The position numbers and the translations under genes are program-made. Of a stretch of DNA of 62,910 bases, positions 51,808 through 56,579 are shown one piece after another. A model generated the notes under the pieces. That model was not told the origin of the DNA. It saw only the letters and a list, made by a program, of their open reading frames with translations, and made no database searches. The number at the start of each line of letters is the position of its first letter. The stretch's first letter is position 1. Origin of the DNA: Lachnospiraceae bacterium (lineage in GTDB: Bacteria; Bacillota; Clostridia; Lachnospirales; Lachnospiraceae); assembly GCA_017620155.1 (NCBI GenBank), contig JAFZQY010000092.1, positions 1-62,910 of the forward strand, given 5' to 3'.

Positions 51808-51834
51808 TTAAGAATCCACATTTTATGCCGAAAT
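51808..51834 (+). promoter_or_regulatory. sigma-28 (SigD/FliA) flagellin promoter
   Basis: TTAA (51808-51811), a 15-base spacer and GCCGAAAT (51827-51834) match the sigma-28 consensus TAAA-N15-GCCGATAT closely. It lies 70 bases before the flagellin start, as expected for a late flagellar gene. Confidence 0.85.
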
Positions 51835-51904: not shown

Positions 51905-53278
51905 ATGTTAAGTGTTGCGCACAACTTAACTGCATATAATGCTCAGAGACAGTTCAATCTTATCAACAACAGTCGGGCTAAATCAGTCGAAAAACTCTCT
52001 TCAGGCTACAAAGTGAACAGAGCAGCGGATGACGCTGCCAGTCTTGCTATTTCCGAGAAAATGAGGCGTCAGGTCAGAGGCCTTACTCAGGCATCTCTTA
52101 ACTGCCAGGACGGAATCAGTCTTAATCAGGTAAAAGACGGCGCTCTTAACGAAGTTCACGACATCTTAAACAGGATGAATGAACTGTCGGTTAAAGCCGC
52201 TAACGATACCCTGACTAATGAAGATCGTCTCTATGTTCAGGAAGAGATGAATCACCTCGTTTCCGAGATCAACAGGATCGGTTCCGATACCACATTCAAT
52301 CACATTCAGGTTTTCGATTACGCCAATCAGATGGGGATCACTACAACTCCTTCAAGTTCAGCCATCGGATCCGGATATCTTACGGATGTTTATCCCGAAA
52401 ACGGAAAGTATTATCCTTCGGCCAATTTGAATTTCAGTGGTGTGAATGCTGATACTGTAAAAGATTTATATGATAAGTCTTTCAGTTTTACCTGCAGCCA
52501 AAGTTGCGATGAAGCTTTTAAGTTCACATTTAAGGGCGATAACACCCCAAGTAGTGCATCAAATCTAAATGGATATGTAAAACACGAATATGTAATAAAT
52601 ATACAGGGTGAAACAACTGCAAAAGGTGTATTAGATAAACTGTTTGATTATGTCTATCATAATATGCCAACCGGTACAAATTGCTCAGCTACAAGTGTTA
52701 ATGATATGATGGTCAGCCATTCTAATCGAATGGTCAGAACATCTGATTCATCTATTTCTCTTGTGGCTGTAGTTGGTTACCCTACTGAAGATCAAGCAGC
52801 AAAAAAATTTGCATCAAGAACGGGTAGTCATGGAAAAGCTGACTGCACAGAAATAGCCAGCGTTATCAGCGATTCCGAATTCAAGCCCCAGCTTAAGATC
52901 CAGGCAGGCGCAGAGAGCGGACAGTACATCTACCTTACGATGGATACAATGAATGCCAAGGTTCTCGGCCTTGATCCCACAGATGTTTCTACACAGAGCG
53001 CTGCATCATCAGCAATAGATAAGATCAAAAACGCTTTTCATGAGATTTCCGAACAGAGATCCAGAGCAGGTGCAGAGCAGAACAGGCTTGAGCATACGAT
53101 CAGGAATCTCGACAACATCGTTGAAAACACGACGGCAGCAGAGTCACAGATAAGAGATACAGATATGGCAAAGCAGATGGTTGAGCTTTCTCTTAAGAAT
53201 ATCCTCGCTCAGGCAGGACAGAGCATGATGTCTCAGGCCAACCAGTCCAACCAGGGCGTTTTGAGTCTCCTTCAGTGA
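51905..53278 (+). CDS. Flagellin
   Basis: A 457-residue flagellin. The N-terminal D0/D1 region starts VAHNLTAYNAQRQFN and has RAADDAASLAISEKMRRQ; the C-terminal D0 region ends NQGVLSLLQ. The central region (about 52340-52860) is hypervariable and AT-richer in codon use than the flanks, with four cysteines, which is rare in flagellins. I chose ATG 51905 because it gives the canonical N-terminus; a longer frame starts at 51866 with AGGAAG before it. Transcribed from a sigma-28 promoter. It is followed by a zinc-ribbon gene and a second flagellin. Confidence 0.92.
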   Translation: MLSVAHNLTAYNAQRQFNLINNSRAKSVEKLSSGYKVNRAADDAASLAISEKMRRQVRGLTQASLNCQDGISLNQVKDGALNEVHDILNRMNELSVKAANDTLTNEDRLYVQEEMNHLVSEINRIGSDTTFNHIQVFDYANQMGITTTPSSSAIGSGYLTDVYPENGKYYPSANLNFSGVNADTVKDLYDKSFSFTCSQSCDEAFKFTFKGDNTPSSASNLNGYVKHEYVINIQGETTAKGVLDKLFDYVYHNMPTGTNCSATSVNDMMVSHSNRMVRTSDSSISLVAVVGYPTEDQAAKKFASRTGSHGKADCTEIASVISDSEFKPQLKIQAGAESGQYIYLTMDTMNAKVLGLDPTDVSTQSAASSAIDKIKNAFHEISEQRSRAGAEQNRLEHTIRNLDNIVENTTAAESQIRDTDMAKQMVELSLKNILAQAGQSMMSQANQSNQGVLSLLQ

Positions 53279-53287
53279 GGTTAACAG

Positions 53288-53683
53288 ATGGGACAGAATA
53301 TAACACTCAGATGTACATCCTGTAAAAACGCTATAAGCCTCTCAGTAGGACAGGGACTTAATGATAACAGATTAGACAGAGTACTCACATATTTTACCGA
53401 TAATAACCGGGAGATCATTAAAAACGAACTGAATAAGCATGGCGGTAATGTTAACTGGTCCTTTTCCCGAATGATCGCCTCCTGCAGGATAAATCACAAC
53501 TTACGTTCTTTACCGACTTTTCATATCAGTGATGAAACAGACCGCATAATAGTTGCTCAATGTGATTGCGGCGGAGAACACGACATATTCGATCCTGAAG
53601 GACTCGAACTTGGCACAGTAAAGATCAATTGTCCCAAATGCGGACAGCAAATGAGATACATAAGAAACGGTTTTTGGGATTAA
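53288..53683 (+). CDS. Zinc-ribbon protein between two flagellins
   Basis: A 131-residue soluble protein I do not recognise. Cysteines at 9/12 (CTSC), 66, 92/94 (QCDCGG) and 115/118 (CPKC) suggest one or two zinc sites, with an alpha-helical segment between (about 28-60). GAGGTT lies before the ATG. It starts 9 bases after the flagellin stop and ends 17 bases before the next flagellin, so it is almost certainly on the flagellin transcript. It could be a chaperone, regulator or modification factor, but none is supported by sequence. Confidence 0.75.
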   Translation: MGQNITLRCTSCKNAISLSVGQGLNDNRLDRVLTYFTDNNREIIKNELNKHGGNVNWSFSRMIASCRINHNLRSLPTFHISDETDRIIVAQCDCGGEHDIFDPEGLELGTVKINCPKCGQQMRYIRNGFWD

Positions 53684-53700: not shown

Positions 53701-55701
53701 ATGGTAGTTCAGCACAATCTGACAGCTCTAAATTCAAATAGAATGCTCGGCCTTACGAATACTTCTCTTGCAAAGACAACAGAGAAGCTTTCTTCGGGTT
53801 ACCGTGTTAACAGAGCTGCCGATGATGCAGCCGGCCTTGCCATCTCCGAGAAGATGAGACGTCAAATCAGAGGCCTCACTCAGGCTTCTGCTAACTGCCA
53901 GGACGGCGTATCTCTATGTCAGATAGCAGACGGCGCTCTCAACGAAGTTCATGATATCCTCAAAAGATGTGAAGAACTGGCAGTTCAGGCCGCAAACGAT
54001 ACCAATACTTCCGAAGATCGTGACTATATCCAGATGGAACTTGATGAGCTTTCAAATGAGATCGACAGGATCCATCAGACGACCGTTTTCAACAATCAGA
54101 ACATCTTCTCGGATATGGGAATAACACCATCCGCAAAAGCCAACAGTATGGTAGGCATTGAAAACGGCTCCATGACACCTGACGGAAAGTTTTCTTTCCT
54201 GACCGAAAACGGTATCTATGTCGAAGTCGGTGTAGTAGATGTCAACAATCAGCCTATAGGAACCCCCGGTGATACACAGGCTACAGGAAATGTGAATTCT
54301 GCTGCTGTTGCCAATTCCGCCATGGCATCATTTGTTCAGCAGGCTGCAGCAGATGCGGTCAGCAAACTTGCCGCAGCTTACCATAATCTTTTTGCCGCAG
54401 CATCTACAGACAGTATCCAGGTCGGACTTGAACTGGGTAACATTGACGGAAAAGGCAACGTACTTGCTAATGCTTCCCTTAAAATGTCCAGCACCGGAGC
54501 CTCTGCCGTCATGAGTTATCGTCTCAAAGTCGACACATCAGATTACAACATCTCTGATTTCAATTCCTATTCGGATGACAAGAAAGCTGATTTTGCGGCA
54601 GTTATCGCTCATGAGATGACTCATCTGGTGATGTATGATACCGTGACCGGAAGCATGCTTGGTTCTGACACATTTCCCCTTTGGTTCATAGAAGGTACTG
54701 CTCAGACATCAAGCGGTGATAACGGCTGGATGAGCTCCCTTAATCCTTCTTCTTCACCTTCAGATATTCAGAAATATATGGATAAAGTCCTTACTCAGCC
54801 TTATGGTGCAGGATATCTGGCTACCATGTATCTGGGAATGTCAGCTTCGGGCCAGGATCCTGCGATCGCCTCTAATGTAACCGGACAGAACATCACAGCC
54901 GGTCTTGATAAGATCCTTACGGCCGTTGCCAAAGGAGATTCTTTTGACAATGCGATAAATGCTGCAACAAACGGGAAGTTTACATCGGCATCCGATTTTG
55001 TCACTAAATTCAGAGGCGGAAGCGGTGATTCAATTTCTTTTACGCAGAATCTGTTAGCAGCTAAGGGCACAAGTGGTTCAGGATCTGTTCTGTATGGTAT
55101 CGGTACAGCGGAAAAAGATGCTTTTGCCCCCTCAAATCTTAATGGAAACTATAGTTCATATAACGTTAACAAGGATAATTCCTGGTATTCCAACGGATTC
55201 GGTTCCGATATCGCATGGCCGGATAATACCGGAACAGACGGAGACGGAAATGGCTTCGTGATCCAGGCCGGAGCCGAAAGCGGACAGTACATCCATATCA
55301 ATCAATACAATATCAGAGCGAATGCTCTTCTTGGCGGCATGAAGATGGATGTGACCGGAGCATATACGAATCCTCCCGCATCTTCAGGAACAATGAATAC
55401 CGTTACGCTTAATGATGCGGCTTCAAGAGGAAACACGATAGATATCATTAAAGAAGCGGACAGAAGAGTATCCGTGATCCGTTCATATTACGGAGCAACT
55501 CAGAACCGTCTTGAACATACTATCAGGAATCTGGATAACATAGTCGAGAATACGACCGCAGCCGAAAGCCTGATCAGAGATACCGATATGGCTAAGGAAA
55601 TGGTTACTTATTCGAATTCCAATATCCTGTCTCAGGCCGGTCAGACCATGCTTGCGCAGGCTAACCAGTCTAAGCAGGGTATCTTAAGTCTCTTACAGTG
55701 A
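53701..55701 (+). CDS. Flagellin with inserted zinc metallopeptidase domain (flagellinolysin type)
   Basis: A 666-residue flagellin. D0/D1 helices are at residues 1-140 (starting VQHNLTALN) and about 560-666 (ending KQGILSLLQ). Between them lies a peptidase insert of about 300 residues with the zinc motif HEMTH at 304-308, then E331 in WFIEGTAQ as the likely third ligand, 22 residues downstream. This matches the described flagellinolysins, proteolytic flagellins that assemble into enzymatically active filaments; substrate is unknown. It follows the zinc-ribbon gene and has GGAG 11 bases before ATG. Cysteines 66, 73 and 90 are unusual for a flagellin. Confidence 0.93.
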   Translation: MVVQHNLTALNSNRMLGLTNTSLAKTTEKLSSGYRVNRAADDAAGLAISEKMRRQIRGLTQASANCQDGVSLCQIADGALNEVHDILKRCEELAVQAANDTNTSEDRDYIQMELDELSNEIDRIHQTTVFNNQNIFSDMGITPSAKANSMVGIENGSMTPDGKFSFLTENGIYVEVGVVDVNNQPIGTPGDTQATGNVNSAAVANSAMASFVQQAAADAVSKLAAAYHNLFAAASTDSIQVGLELGNIDGKGNVLANASLKMSSTGASAVMSYRLKVDTSDYNISDFNSYSDDKKADFAAVIAHEMTHLVMYDTVTGSMLGSDTFPLWFIEGTAQTSSGDNGWMSSLNPSSSPSDIQKYMDKVLTQPYGAGYLATMYLGMSASGQDPAIASNVTGQNITAGLDKILTAVAKGDSFDNAINAATNGKFTSASDFVTKFRGGSGDSISFTQNLLAAKGTSGSGSVLYGIGTAEKDAFAPSNLNGNYSSYNVNKDNSWYSNGFGSDIAWPDNTGTDGDGNGFVIQAGAESGQYIHINQYNIRANALLGGMKMDVTGAYTNPPASSGTMNTVTLNDAASRGNTIDIIKEADRRVSVIRSYYGATQNRLEHTIRNLDNIVENTTAAESLIRDTDMAKEMVTYSNSNILSQAGQTMLAQANQSKQGILSLLQ

Positions 55702-55712
55702 TTTCCGAATAA

Positions 55713-56579
55713 TTAAAGATGATTCCCGTTATTATCCTGCGGAGGAAAATTATTGACGGGAGTATTAGGGTAATTGTTTACCGGAGTGTTCGGGTAATTG
55801 TTTACCGGTGTGTTCGGATAATTATTTACTGGTGTATTAGGCACATTATTAACCGGAGGCTGAACCGGAGGAGTGTTGTACCAGTAATTCGAGAAACCGT
55901 ACAGGGGAGTATCGCGTTTGGATAAGTAATTTATCCGGTTGATCGTATAGATCGTAAGTCCGATCTCGAATACGAAGAATATGATCAGGAAAAGATCGGA
56001 TCCCGTACTTAAGCAGAAATCATAGAATCCGTGCAAAAGAACCGGAACCCACAGTCCTTTGGTCATATTGGATTTCATTTCCTTCTGATTGCCGTAAACC
56101 GAATAGTATTTGGCTATACCGAGATAATATCCCATGAATATGGCATCAATCATATGACCGGGCACTGCAAACAGACCTCGAAGTACTGCCAGTCCGACCG
56201 TTTCTCCGATGAGATATCCGATGTTTTCCAGAGTGGCAAAACCCAGAGAAATGGCCACACAATAGACGATGGCATCAAATGTATGATCGAATTCCCTGTT
56301 GTTCCAGGCTTTCCATTTAAAGACCAGATATTTTCCGCCCTCTTCAACGAGAGCAACTATCAGGAAGTTTTCAATCGCGATACGTACTATCGATGTTTCG
56401 GAAAAGACTAATCCCAGCAGGAAGAATCCTATATTTTCAAGAATAAATGCGCTTACTACCGTAGCGGCTCCCCACATAAAGAGCTTCAGCAGAAGCTGCA
56501 TAGGTTCCCTTTCAACACTGTCCTTTTTCCAGATATAGATAAGAAGGACGATACCGGGTATAACAGCAAGTGTGACCAT
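55713..56579 (-). CDS. PrsW-family intramembrane metalloprotease
   Basis: A 288-residue membrane protein with about eight helices. The PrsW signature motifs are VEEGGKYLVF near residue 77, FATLENIGYL near 114 and HGFYDF near 185, with HMIDAIFMGYYLG near 137. In Bacillus PrsW cleaves an anti-sigma factor; the substrate here is unknown. The tail after the last helix (about 235-288) is a Pro/Asn repeat (PNTPVNNY, four copies). AAAGGAG precedes the ATG. It is convergent with the proteolytic flagellin. Confidence 0.88.
   Translation of the reverse strand: MVTLAVIPGIVLLIYIWKKDSVEREPMQLLLKLFMWGAATVVSAFILENIGFFLLGLVFSETSIVRIAIENFLIVALVEEGGKYLVFKWKAWNNREFDHTFDAIVYCVAISLGFATLENIGYLIGETVGLAVLRGLFAVPGHMIDAIFMGYYLGIAKYYSVYGNQKEMKSNMTKGLWVPVLLHGFYDFCLSTGSDLFLIIFFVFEIGLTIYTINRINYLSKRDTPLYGFSNYWYNTPPVQPPVNNVPNTPVNNYPNTPVNNYPNTPVNNYPNTPVNNFPPQDNNGNHL
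55746..55857 (-). repeat. 24-bp tandem repeats encoding PNTPVNNY
   Basis: On the minus strand about four and a half 24-bp units encode the cytoplasmic or exposed tail of the PrsW protein. The units differ mostly at third codon positions, so the peptide is conserved more than the DNA, which suggests selection on the protein. Confidence 0.85.

Follow-up and report, generated by a model that had tools for sequence, protein, structure and literature searches.

A divergent, Lachnospiraceae-centred branch of the flagellinolysins and its conserved zinc-ribbon-like partner gene

The window, meaning the whole stretch of 62,910 nucleotides that was analysed, carries on its forward strand a gene for a predicted proteolytic flagellin, FlaMP. 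It is immediately preceded by a gene for a small Cys-rich protein, ZnR, and before that by a gene for a structural flagellin. The features of the locus are given below, where side II denotes one of the two deep sides of the peptidase tree discussed further on.

51809..51834, + strand: sigma28-like site TAAG-N14-GCCGAAAT with 2 mismatches, before the structural flagellin gene, suggestive by position only
51905..53278, + strand: structural flagellin without HExxH (open reading frame listed from 51866; the start that suits Flagellin_N is 51905)
53288..53683, + strand: ZnR, 131-residue Cys-rich, zinc-ribbon-like partner ending in GFWD (open reading frame, phmmer, profile)
53675..53680, + strand: C-terminal Trp-Asp of ZnR, kept in 40 of 41 other profile matches
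53701..55701, + strand: FlaMP, putative proteolytic flagellin of 666 residues, side II flagellinolysin (open reading frame, Pfam, NF033876, tree)
53707..54114, + strand: Flagellin_N, residues 3-138, filament core (Pfam, E 4.5e-41)
54298..55110, + strand: predicted gluzincin peptidase core, approximately residues 200-470 (NF033876 match and alignments)
54610..54624, + strand: HEMTH, residues 304-308, with zinc ligands H304 and H308 and general base E305 (roles by homology, PMC5595980)
54691..54702, + strand: EGTA, from E331 (third zinc ligand) to A334 (basement Ala) (roles by homology, PMC5595980)
55438..55695, + strand: Flagellin_C, residues 580-665, filament core (Pfam, E 6.2e-22)
55713-56579, - strand: PrsW-family intramembrane protease whose C-terminus has proline/asparagine repeats, convergent with FlaMP

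The three forward-strand genes are closely spaced, with 9 bases between the structural flagellin and ZnR and 17 bases between ZnR and the FlaMP start codon. The FlaMP frame (53701-55701, +) begins with ATG, encodes 666 amino acids and has no internal stops. ZnR, the conserved partner gene directly 5' of FlaMP, was missed by the initial annotation. The PrsW-family neighbour of FlaMP is kept in the congener locus L011. The structural flagellin was considered as a dead flagellinolysin and rejected: it scores 62.3 bits to NF033876, the NCBIfam flagellinolysin model, but has no HExxH; matches of this sort stem largely from the flagellin ends contained in the model, and many ordinary flagellins match it too.

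The sigma28-like site before the structural flagellin was scored against what we take to be the sigma28 consensus. With a 14-base spacer the window contains 12 such matches where 7.6 would be expected, a total attained by 6 of 100 shuffles, and with a 15-base spacer 13 where 7.0 would be expected, attained by 0 of 100; the matches are scattered over the window and are not confined to the flagellin start. An exact search for CCGATA before the window flagellin gave no site, and a sigma70 scan of the window gave fewer sites than in shuffles. Comparisons across loci, here and below, use named loci, the best 80 of at least 156 confirmed candidates from a scan of named genomes. In 8 of the 43 named side II loci (best 80 of at least 156) the pattern TA[AT][AG]-N12-17-GCCGANA is found no more than 150 bases upstream of the stop-to-stop FlaMP frame; from its 36 occurrences in 780 kb on one strand of all loci, about 0.3 would be expected.

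A flagellinolysin carries Flagellin N- and C-terminal domains on one chain, an HExxH motif, a Glu as third ligand and an Ala at E+3. The family is further marked by proteolysis that depends on zinc and calcium and by assembly on the filament surface, which FlaMP would share. Pfam assigns residues 3-138 of FlaMP to Flagellin_N and residues 580-665 to Flagellin_C, in agreement with the initial annotation, which had proposed that both polymerisation ends are present. The motif residues are H304, E305, H308, E331 and A334. Translation likewise bears out the gene coordinates given earlier, HEMTH at residues 304-308 and the placing of E331 22 residues past H308, inside WFIEGTAQ with A334 at E+3. The 22-residue stretch is unremarkable, because in 79 of the 80 named loci (best 80 of at least 156), those where the motif was found, 16 to 34 residues separate the second His from the Glu, a range that takes in a few rows that are not flagellins or not family; the motif search found none in L105. 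Across 41 aligned side II sequences, the window's among them, the active-site residues H, E, H, W, E, G, A and Q do not vary; the set is biased towards these residues because the loci were found with patterns containing HExxH and WxxEGxA. Flagellinolysins have a calcium-site Asp upstream of HExxH, for which D278 is a tentative candidate: it aligns with an Asp of the canonical flagellinolysin at L008, which rather than FliA(H) served as the reference, and this position is mostly D or N in the side II frames listed and is not invariant among the 41.

NF033876 matches residues 206-544 of FlaMP (E 2.2e-41, 142.6 bits) without reaching its cut-off of 205, and the peptidase part alone matches at E 5.6e-38 in a whole-genome search. 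One of four side II flagellins scanned exceeds the cut-off (220.2; the others 155.3, 164.5 and 203.9), as do all four side I flagellins scanned (332.9 to 437.1). The score of FlaMP may thus be read as divergence within the family, the cut-off being one for naming that marks no biological feature. Judged from its sequence, FlaMP is a member of a divergent branch of the known flagellinolysin (proteolytic flagellin) family. The proposed fit to the flagellinolysin group is upheld by the NF033876 match, the invariant active site and the side II place on the tree.

The score below the NCBIfam cut-off might instead be taken as a sign that FlaMP is a catalytically dead structural flagellin keeping an old peptidase fold, and related genes can decay, as in L150, where HGLMH replaces HExxH and the frame is split. 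However, every catalytic residue is kept in FlaMP and the frame is intact, and comparison of the window with its congener in L011 gives a dN/dS of 0.10 for the whole gene and approximately 0.10 over residues 200-470. The peptidase domain is under purifying selection, and a dead flagellin is very improbable.

The FlaMP peptidase resembles an M9-type gluzincin by sequence and is not filed as M9; the Peptidase M9 model PF01752 gave no match to FlaMP in Pfam up to E 0.1. Clostridial collagenases of family M9 (ColG) were the only solved structures matched by a profile of the 41 side II rows at E<=1 (E 0.03 and 0.055, both weak). In the better of these matches (E 0.03) HExxH falls on HEYTH and WFxEGtA on WFDEGTAEF of collagenase G, and a non-peptidase fold around HEMTH is not what this weak alignment shows. 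The FlaMP peptidase is embedded in a flagellin, unlike ColG. PMC5595980, too, gives clostridial collagenase as nearest.

Two proteolytic flagellins have been characterised. FliA(H) of Clostridium haemolyticum, as its main text describes it (PMC5595980), has in common with FlaMP the flagellin ends around a gluzincin, HExxH, a Glu as third ligand and the basement Ala at E+3; the interval from second His to Glu is 23 positions in FlaMP and 25 in FliA(H). In C. haemolyticum, according to the same paper, just one filament protein is more abundant than the proteolytic flagellin, and peptides are cleaved by purified filaments (PMC5595980). By analogy with FliA(H), FlaMP would be expected on the filament surface together with structural flagellin. 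FliA(H) was compared by description, outside the tree. HgrFlaMP of Hylemonella gracilis has the same domain architecture as FlaMP by the paper's description (PMC7643111). It is beta-proteobacterial and likewise outside the tree, in which the Pseudomonadota rows fall on side I, and the gene neighbours given for it are NUDIX, MarR and others (PMC7643111).

An unrooted tree of the peptidase part (78 rows) has two deep sides whose joining branch has support 100/100. Side I, the canonical side, holds 29 rows, mainly Pseudomonadota with some Bacillota and the relative genome G078; side II is Lachnospiraceae-centred and holds 49 rows, window included. A second tree (81 rows) recovers the same two sides with support 95/96, L143 being a long, unsure row at the base of side I. 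L093, L104, L108, L117 and L119 were kept out of the trees as broken or cut frames or as not family, and the second tree is also without L061, L069, L072, L084, L098, L099, L103, L106, L107, L116 and L124. L090, which lacks flagellin ends, lies on side I on a long branch and is perhaps a damaged gene, was kept in the trees and outside every ZnR count. The closest named relatives of FlaMP (best 80 of at least 156) are Lachnospiraceae, including Lachnospira and Butyrivibrio metagenome-assembled genomes, one of them from goat reticulum, and the earlier placing of the gene in a gut-type Clostridium is thus inexact. Very long proteolytic flagellins of 1561, 961 and 1094 residues occur at L055:4059-8741, L010:46-2928 and L137:2597-5878, the first with beta-helix repeats. 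L009 and L054 each have a stop codon in the N-terminal part of the proteolytic flagellin, and both records may be one species.

The peptidase is also found on other carriers. Flagellin-free forms at L065, L138, L144, L145 and L161 have starts that resemble signal peptides by eye, and in two Treponema metagenome-assembled genomes (L082:4308-5837 and L087:4458-5828) a peptidase judged lipoprotein-like by eye has no flagellin ends. The flagellin-free peptidase at L138:794-2968 (G135) has a type I dockerin near its N-terminus (E 2e-10) and is possibly a cellulosome-bound protease. On the second tree, unpolarised, the flagellin or flagellin-free label changes at least four times, one change being owed to the unclear L090.

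ZnR has up to four Cys pairs of zinc-ribbon-like appearance among its members. The alignment used here holds 34 of 41 sequences (window and 40 others), seven having been dropped as duplicates or for an unclear start. Gly2, Cys9, Gly21, Gly23, Cys115, Cys118, Trp130 and Asp131 are invariant in the 34, the invariant Met-Gly being partly our own choice because start codons were picked by the pattern [MVLI]G. The relative at L045 is without several of the cysteines. Trp-Asp ends 40 of the 41 non-window ZnR matches in the loci examined; the remaining match, at L123, is weak, ends in Tyr-Asp and lies outside the 40. In the named loci (best 80 of at least 156) 38 of 6238 stop-to-stop frames of at least 50 residues end in Trp-Asp. 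The dN/dS of ZnR between the window and the congener in L011 is 0.09, and no signal peptide was seen in ZnR by eye. CpXC and other small zinc-ribbon families are alike ZnR in short size and CxxC pairs, from which ZnR differs in that no Pfam or NCBIfam model reached its cut-off against the window protein; among the 34 members the commonest Pfam model, Zn_ribbon_8, matches 12 and the commonest NCBIfam model 7.

The notion that the Trp-Asp tail is special to the flagellin partner was rejected. Wider ZnR relatives at L130:1501-1953, L131:1258-1755, L155:2157-2609 and L166:2674-3111, an undescribed wider ZnR family, share the tail without flagellin in the stretches examined, and the tail is therefore not special to the pairing of ZnR with FlaMP.

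A phmmer search with the window ZnR found relatives directly adjoining FlaMP in other loci. By profile, 37 of the 43 named side II embedded loci (best 80 of at least 156) have ZnR next to the proteolytic flagellin; both flagellin ends are present in 42 of these 43 frames, the other, L054, being split by a stop. The six side II loci without ZnR are L057, L080, L083, L084, L085 and L095, absence being unsure at L085 because the sequence there spans just 241 bases upstream. The profile search saw no ZnR beside the flagellin-free L065, L082 and L087. The 27 named side I loci (best 80 of at least 156) all have both flagellin ends and yield one weak ZnR match (L123, E 8.9e-4). At that locus (L123:6050-6388) a different small Cys-rich frame with a Tyr-Asp end lies directly 3' of the side I flagellinolysin. 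On the second tree 22 rows have ZnR upstream and 21 have it downstream, and the order changes at least three times with adjacency kept. L057:1854-4140 and L083:1963-4221, both without ZnR, have two genes upstream of the proteolytic flagellin that look glycosyltransferase-like by eye, and downstream of it a mini-flagellin-like frame of 121-122 residues.

The association was followed in genome sets that, with the named set, are partly overlapping samples. Among 98 genomes (own included) the peptidase part is found in five among the matches listed, G000, G001, G037, G059 and G078, and there are four ZnR matches at E<=1e-20, one in each genome that has a side II peptidase (G000, G001, G037 and G059). 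Seven weaker ZnR matches lie in six genomes among the matches listed, the best at 3.4e-15 in G052; this one has no Trp-Asp end and no flagellin in the 5 kb around it. In a family survey of 397 genomes (own included), peptidase matches at E<=1e-6 occur in 22, ZnR matches at E<=1e-6 in 20 and flagellin in 213; ZnR therefore does not track flagellins in general. At E<=1e-13 the survey gives 17 ZnR matches, of which 16 end in Trp-Asp. Fifteen of these 16 adjoin an embedded peptidase on the same strand, and 104 bases separate the sixteenth, in G284, from a contig end, so that its neighbour is out of view. Seen from the peptidase, 15 of 18 embedded genes have ZnR (those without are in G321, G422 and G319), a count that includes broken copies in G037, G326 and G381, and none of six flagellin-free peptidases has it (G135, G345, G123, G336 and two in G236).

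An order-level survey (295 genomes, a number of which the family survey also covers) added three strong ZnR matches, all adjacent (G478, G596 and G613), and a weak one (G629). Three of its 10 embedded genes, the window's excluded, have ZnR; those without are in G574, G591 and G645 (one genus), G599, one of those in G613, G492 and the side I G078. In G599 the contig ends just upstream of the embedded gene, where ZnR was not seen. The single flagellin-free gene (G555) is without ZnR.

Over both overlapping surveys, 18 of 19 ZnR matches (E<=1e-13, Trp-Asp end) lie beside an embedded peptidase and the nineteenth is at a contig end; G052 falls outside the 19 for the reasons given above, and counting it in gives 18 of 20. 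ZnR is present with 18 of 28 embedded and 0 of 7 flagellin-free peptidases (Fisher p 0.003, which is optimistic because survey rows are related). The tree affords three to four independent contrasts between embedded and flagellin-free forms, nearly all as expected and none against, too few for significance. Among the ZnR-linked copies counted, G326 and G381 are broken by more than one change each and G037 is split by a stop. The decaying copies at L150 (G326) and L168 (G381) have split frames. G236 holds three peptidase copies (L144, L145 and L146), one in a flagellin with ZnR and two flagellin-free without it. A strong ZnR match predicts a proteolytic flagellin well, and the reverse holds in part: ZnR is not essential for every proteolytic flagellin, because 6 of the 43 named side II loci (best 80 of at least 156) lack it, as do 3 of 18 and 7 of 10 survey genes and, apart from one weak match in 27 named loci, side I.

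The absence of ZnR from 10 of the 28 embedded survey genes is also what would be seen if FlaMP were an ordinary side II flagellinolysin and ZnR a hitch-hiker, or a general regulator of flagellin genes, with no direct link to the peptidase. The window ZnR adjoins the structural flagellin as well, and zinc ribbons are common in nucleic-acid-binding proteins, a point for which the matches seen are partial and weak. Nevertheless, in 195 family-survey genomes a flagellin was found without an embedded peptidase, and ZnR (E<=1e-13, Trp-Asp end) is present in one of them, at a contig end, while one more, G052, has a match that lacks Trp-Asp; moreover, the adjacency of ZnR and FlaMP survives changes of gene order. 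Such a reading is considered unlikely.

The explanation that we favour with good confidence as a whole is a flagellinolysin on the filament surface together with a ZnR that acts on its peptidase domain. FlaMP would be a flagellin with a zinc gluzincin endopeptidase as its outer part. Exported by way of the flagellar channel, it would co-polymerise, as a minor subunit, with the structural flagellins of the cell, so that the peptidase would be shown on the filament surface and would cut proteins near the cell. Whether from the host or from neighbours, as the initial annotation supposed, such proteins may be degraded. Zinc binding, activity and assembly of FlaMP are very probable by analogy with the characterised relatives, and, by homology with two characterised members (PMC5595980, PMC7643111), FlaMP is likely an active surface protease, as the initial annotation had supposed.

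Flagellins are exported unfolded and then polymerise. ZnR would act on the peptidase domain while this is still in the cytosol, either inhibiting it specifically or serving as an export chaperone, so that the domain stays inactive or unfolded until it is exported; we put forward this role as a plausible though tentative hypothesis of our own. A role before flagellar export fits, because ZnR is tied to the embedded and not to the flagellin-free forms (0 of 7) and has no evident signal peptide. Alternatively, instead of inhibiting or chaperoning the peptidase, ZnR might supply it with metal as a zinc donor or folding factor, in keeping with its up to four zinc-ribbon-like Cys pairs and with a client that would be a zinc enzyme. 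However, no ZnR lies beside the flagellin-free forms of this peptidase, L045 has lost several of the cysteines, and the peptidase would be expected to fold once exported, out of reach of a cytosolic donor; this alternative appears improbable. Extending the inhibitor or chaperone reading, ZnR may bind the side II peptidase domain, perhaps placing the conserved Trp-Asp tail in the active site, and then pass the domain on for export. The pair would then form a two-gene protease-display cassette, and the domain would move repeatedly between flagellins and secreted, lipoprotein-like or dockerin carriers, the latter without ZnR. This fuller scheme is possible but somewhat doubtful.

Among the papers listed on flagellinolysin and proteolytic flagellin in the largely open-access literature, none deals with such a partner gene. 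By word search, the main text of PMC5595980 does not mention a zinc-ribbon partner of FliA(H), and zinc ribbon, Lachnospiraceae and Butyrivibrio are absent from the main texts of PMC5595980 and PMC7643111; nor, in the sections consulted, do these papers address how an active protease is made in the cytosol and threaded through the flagellar channel. The proteolytic flagellin itself is of a known kind, and what is new is the Lachnospiraceae-centred divergent branch and its conserved partner gene. The partner gene makes the question of cytosol and export testable with two proteins. The source of the inserted flagellinolysin domain was called undetermined in 2017 (PMC5595980), and leads on where that domain came from are offered by the peptidase itself, which has repeatedly been exchanged between flagella and other carriers.
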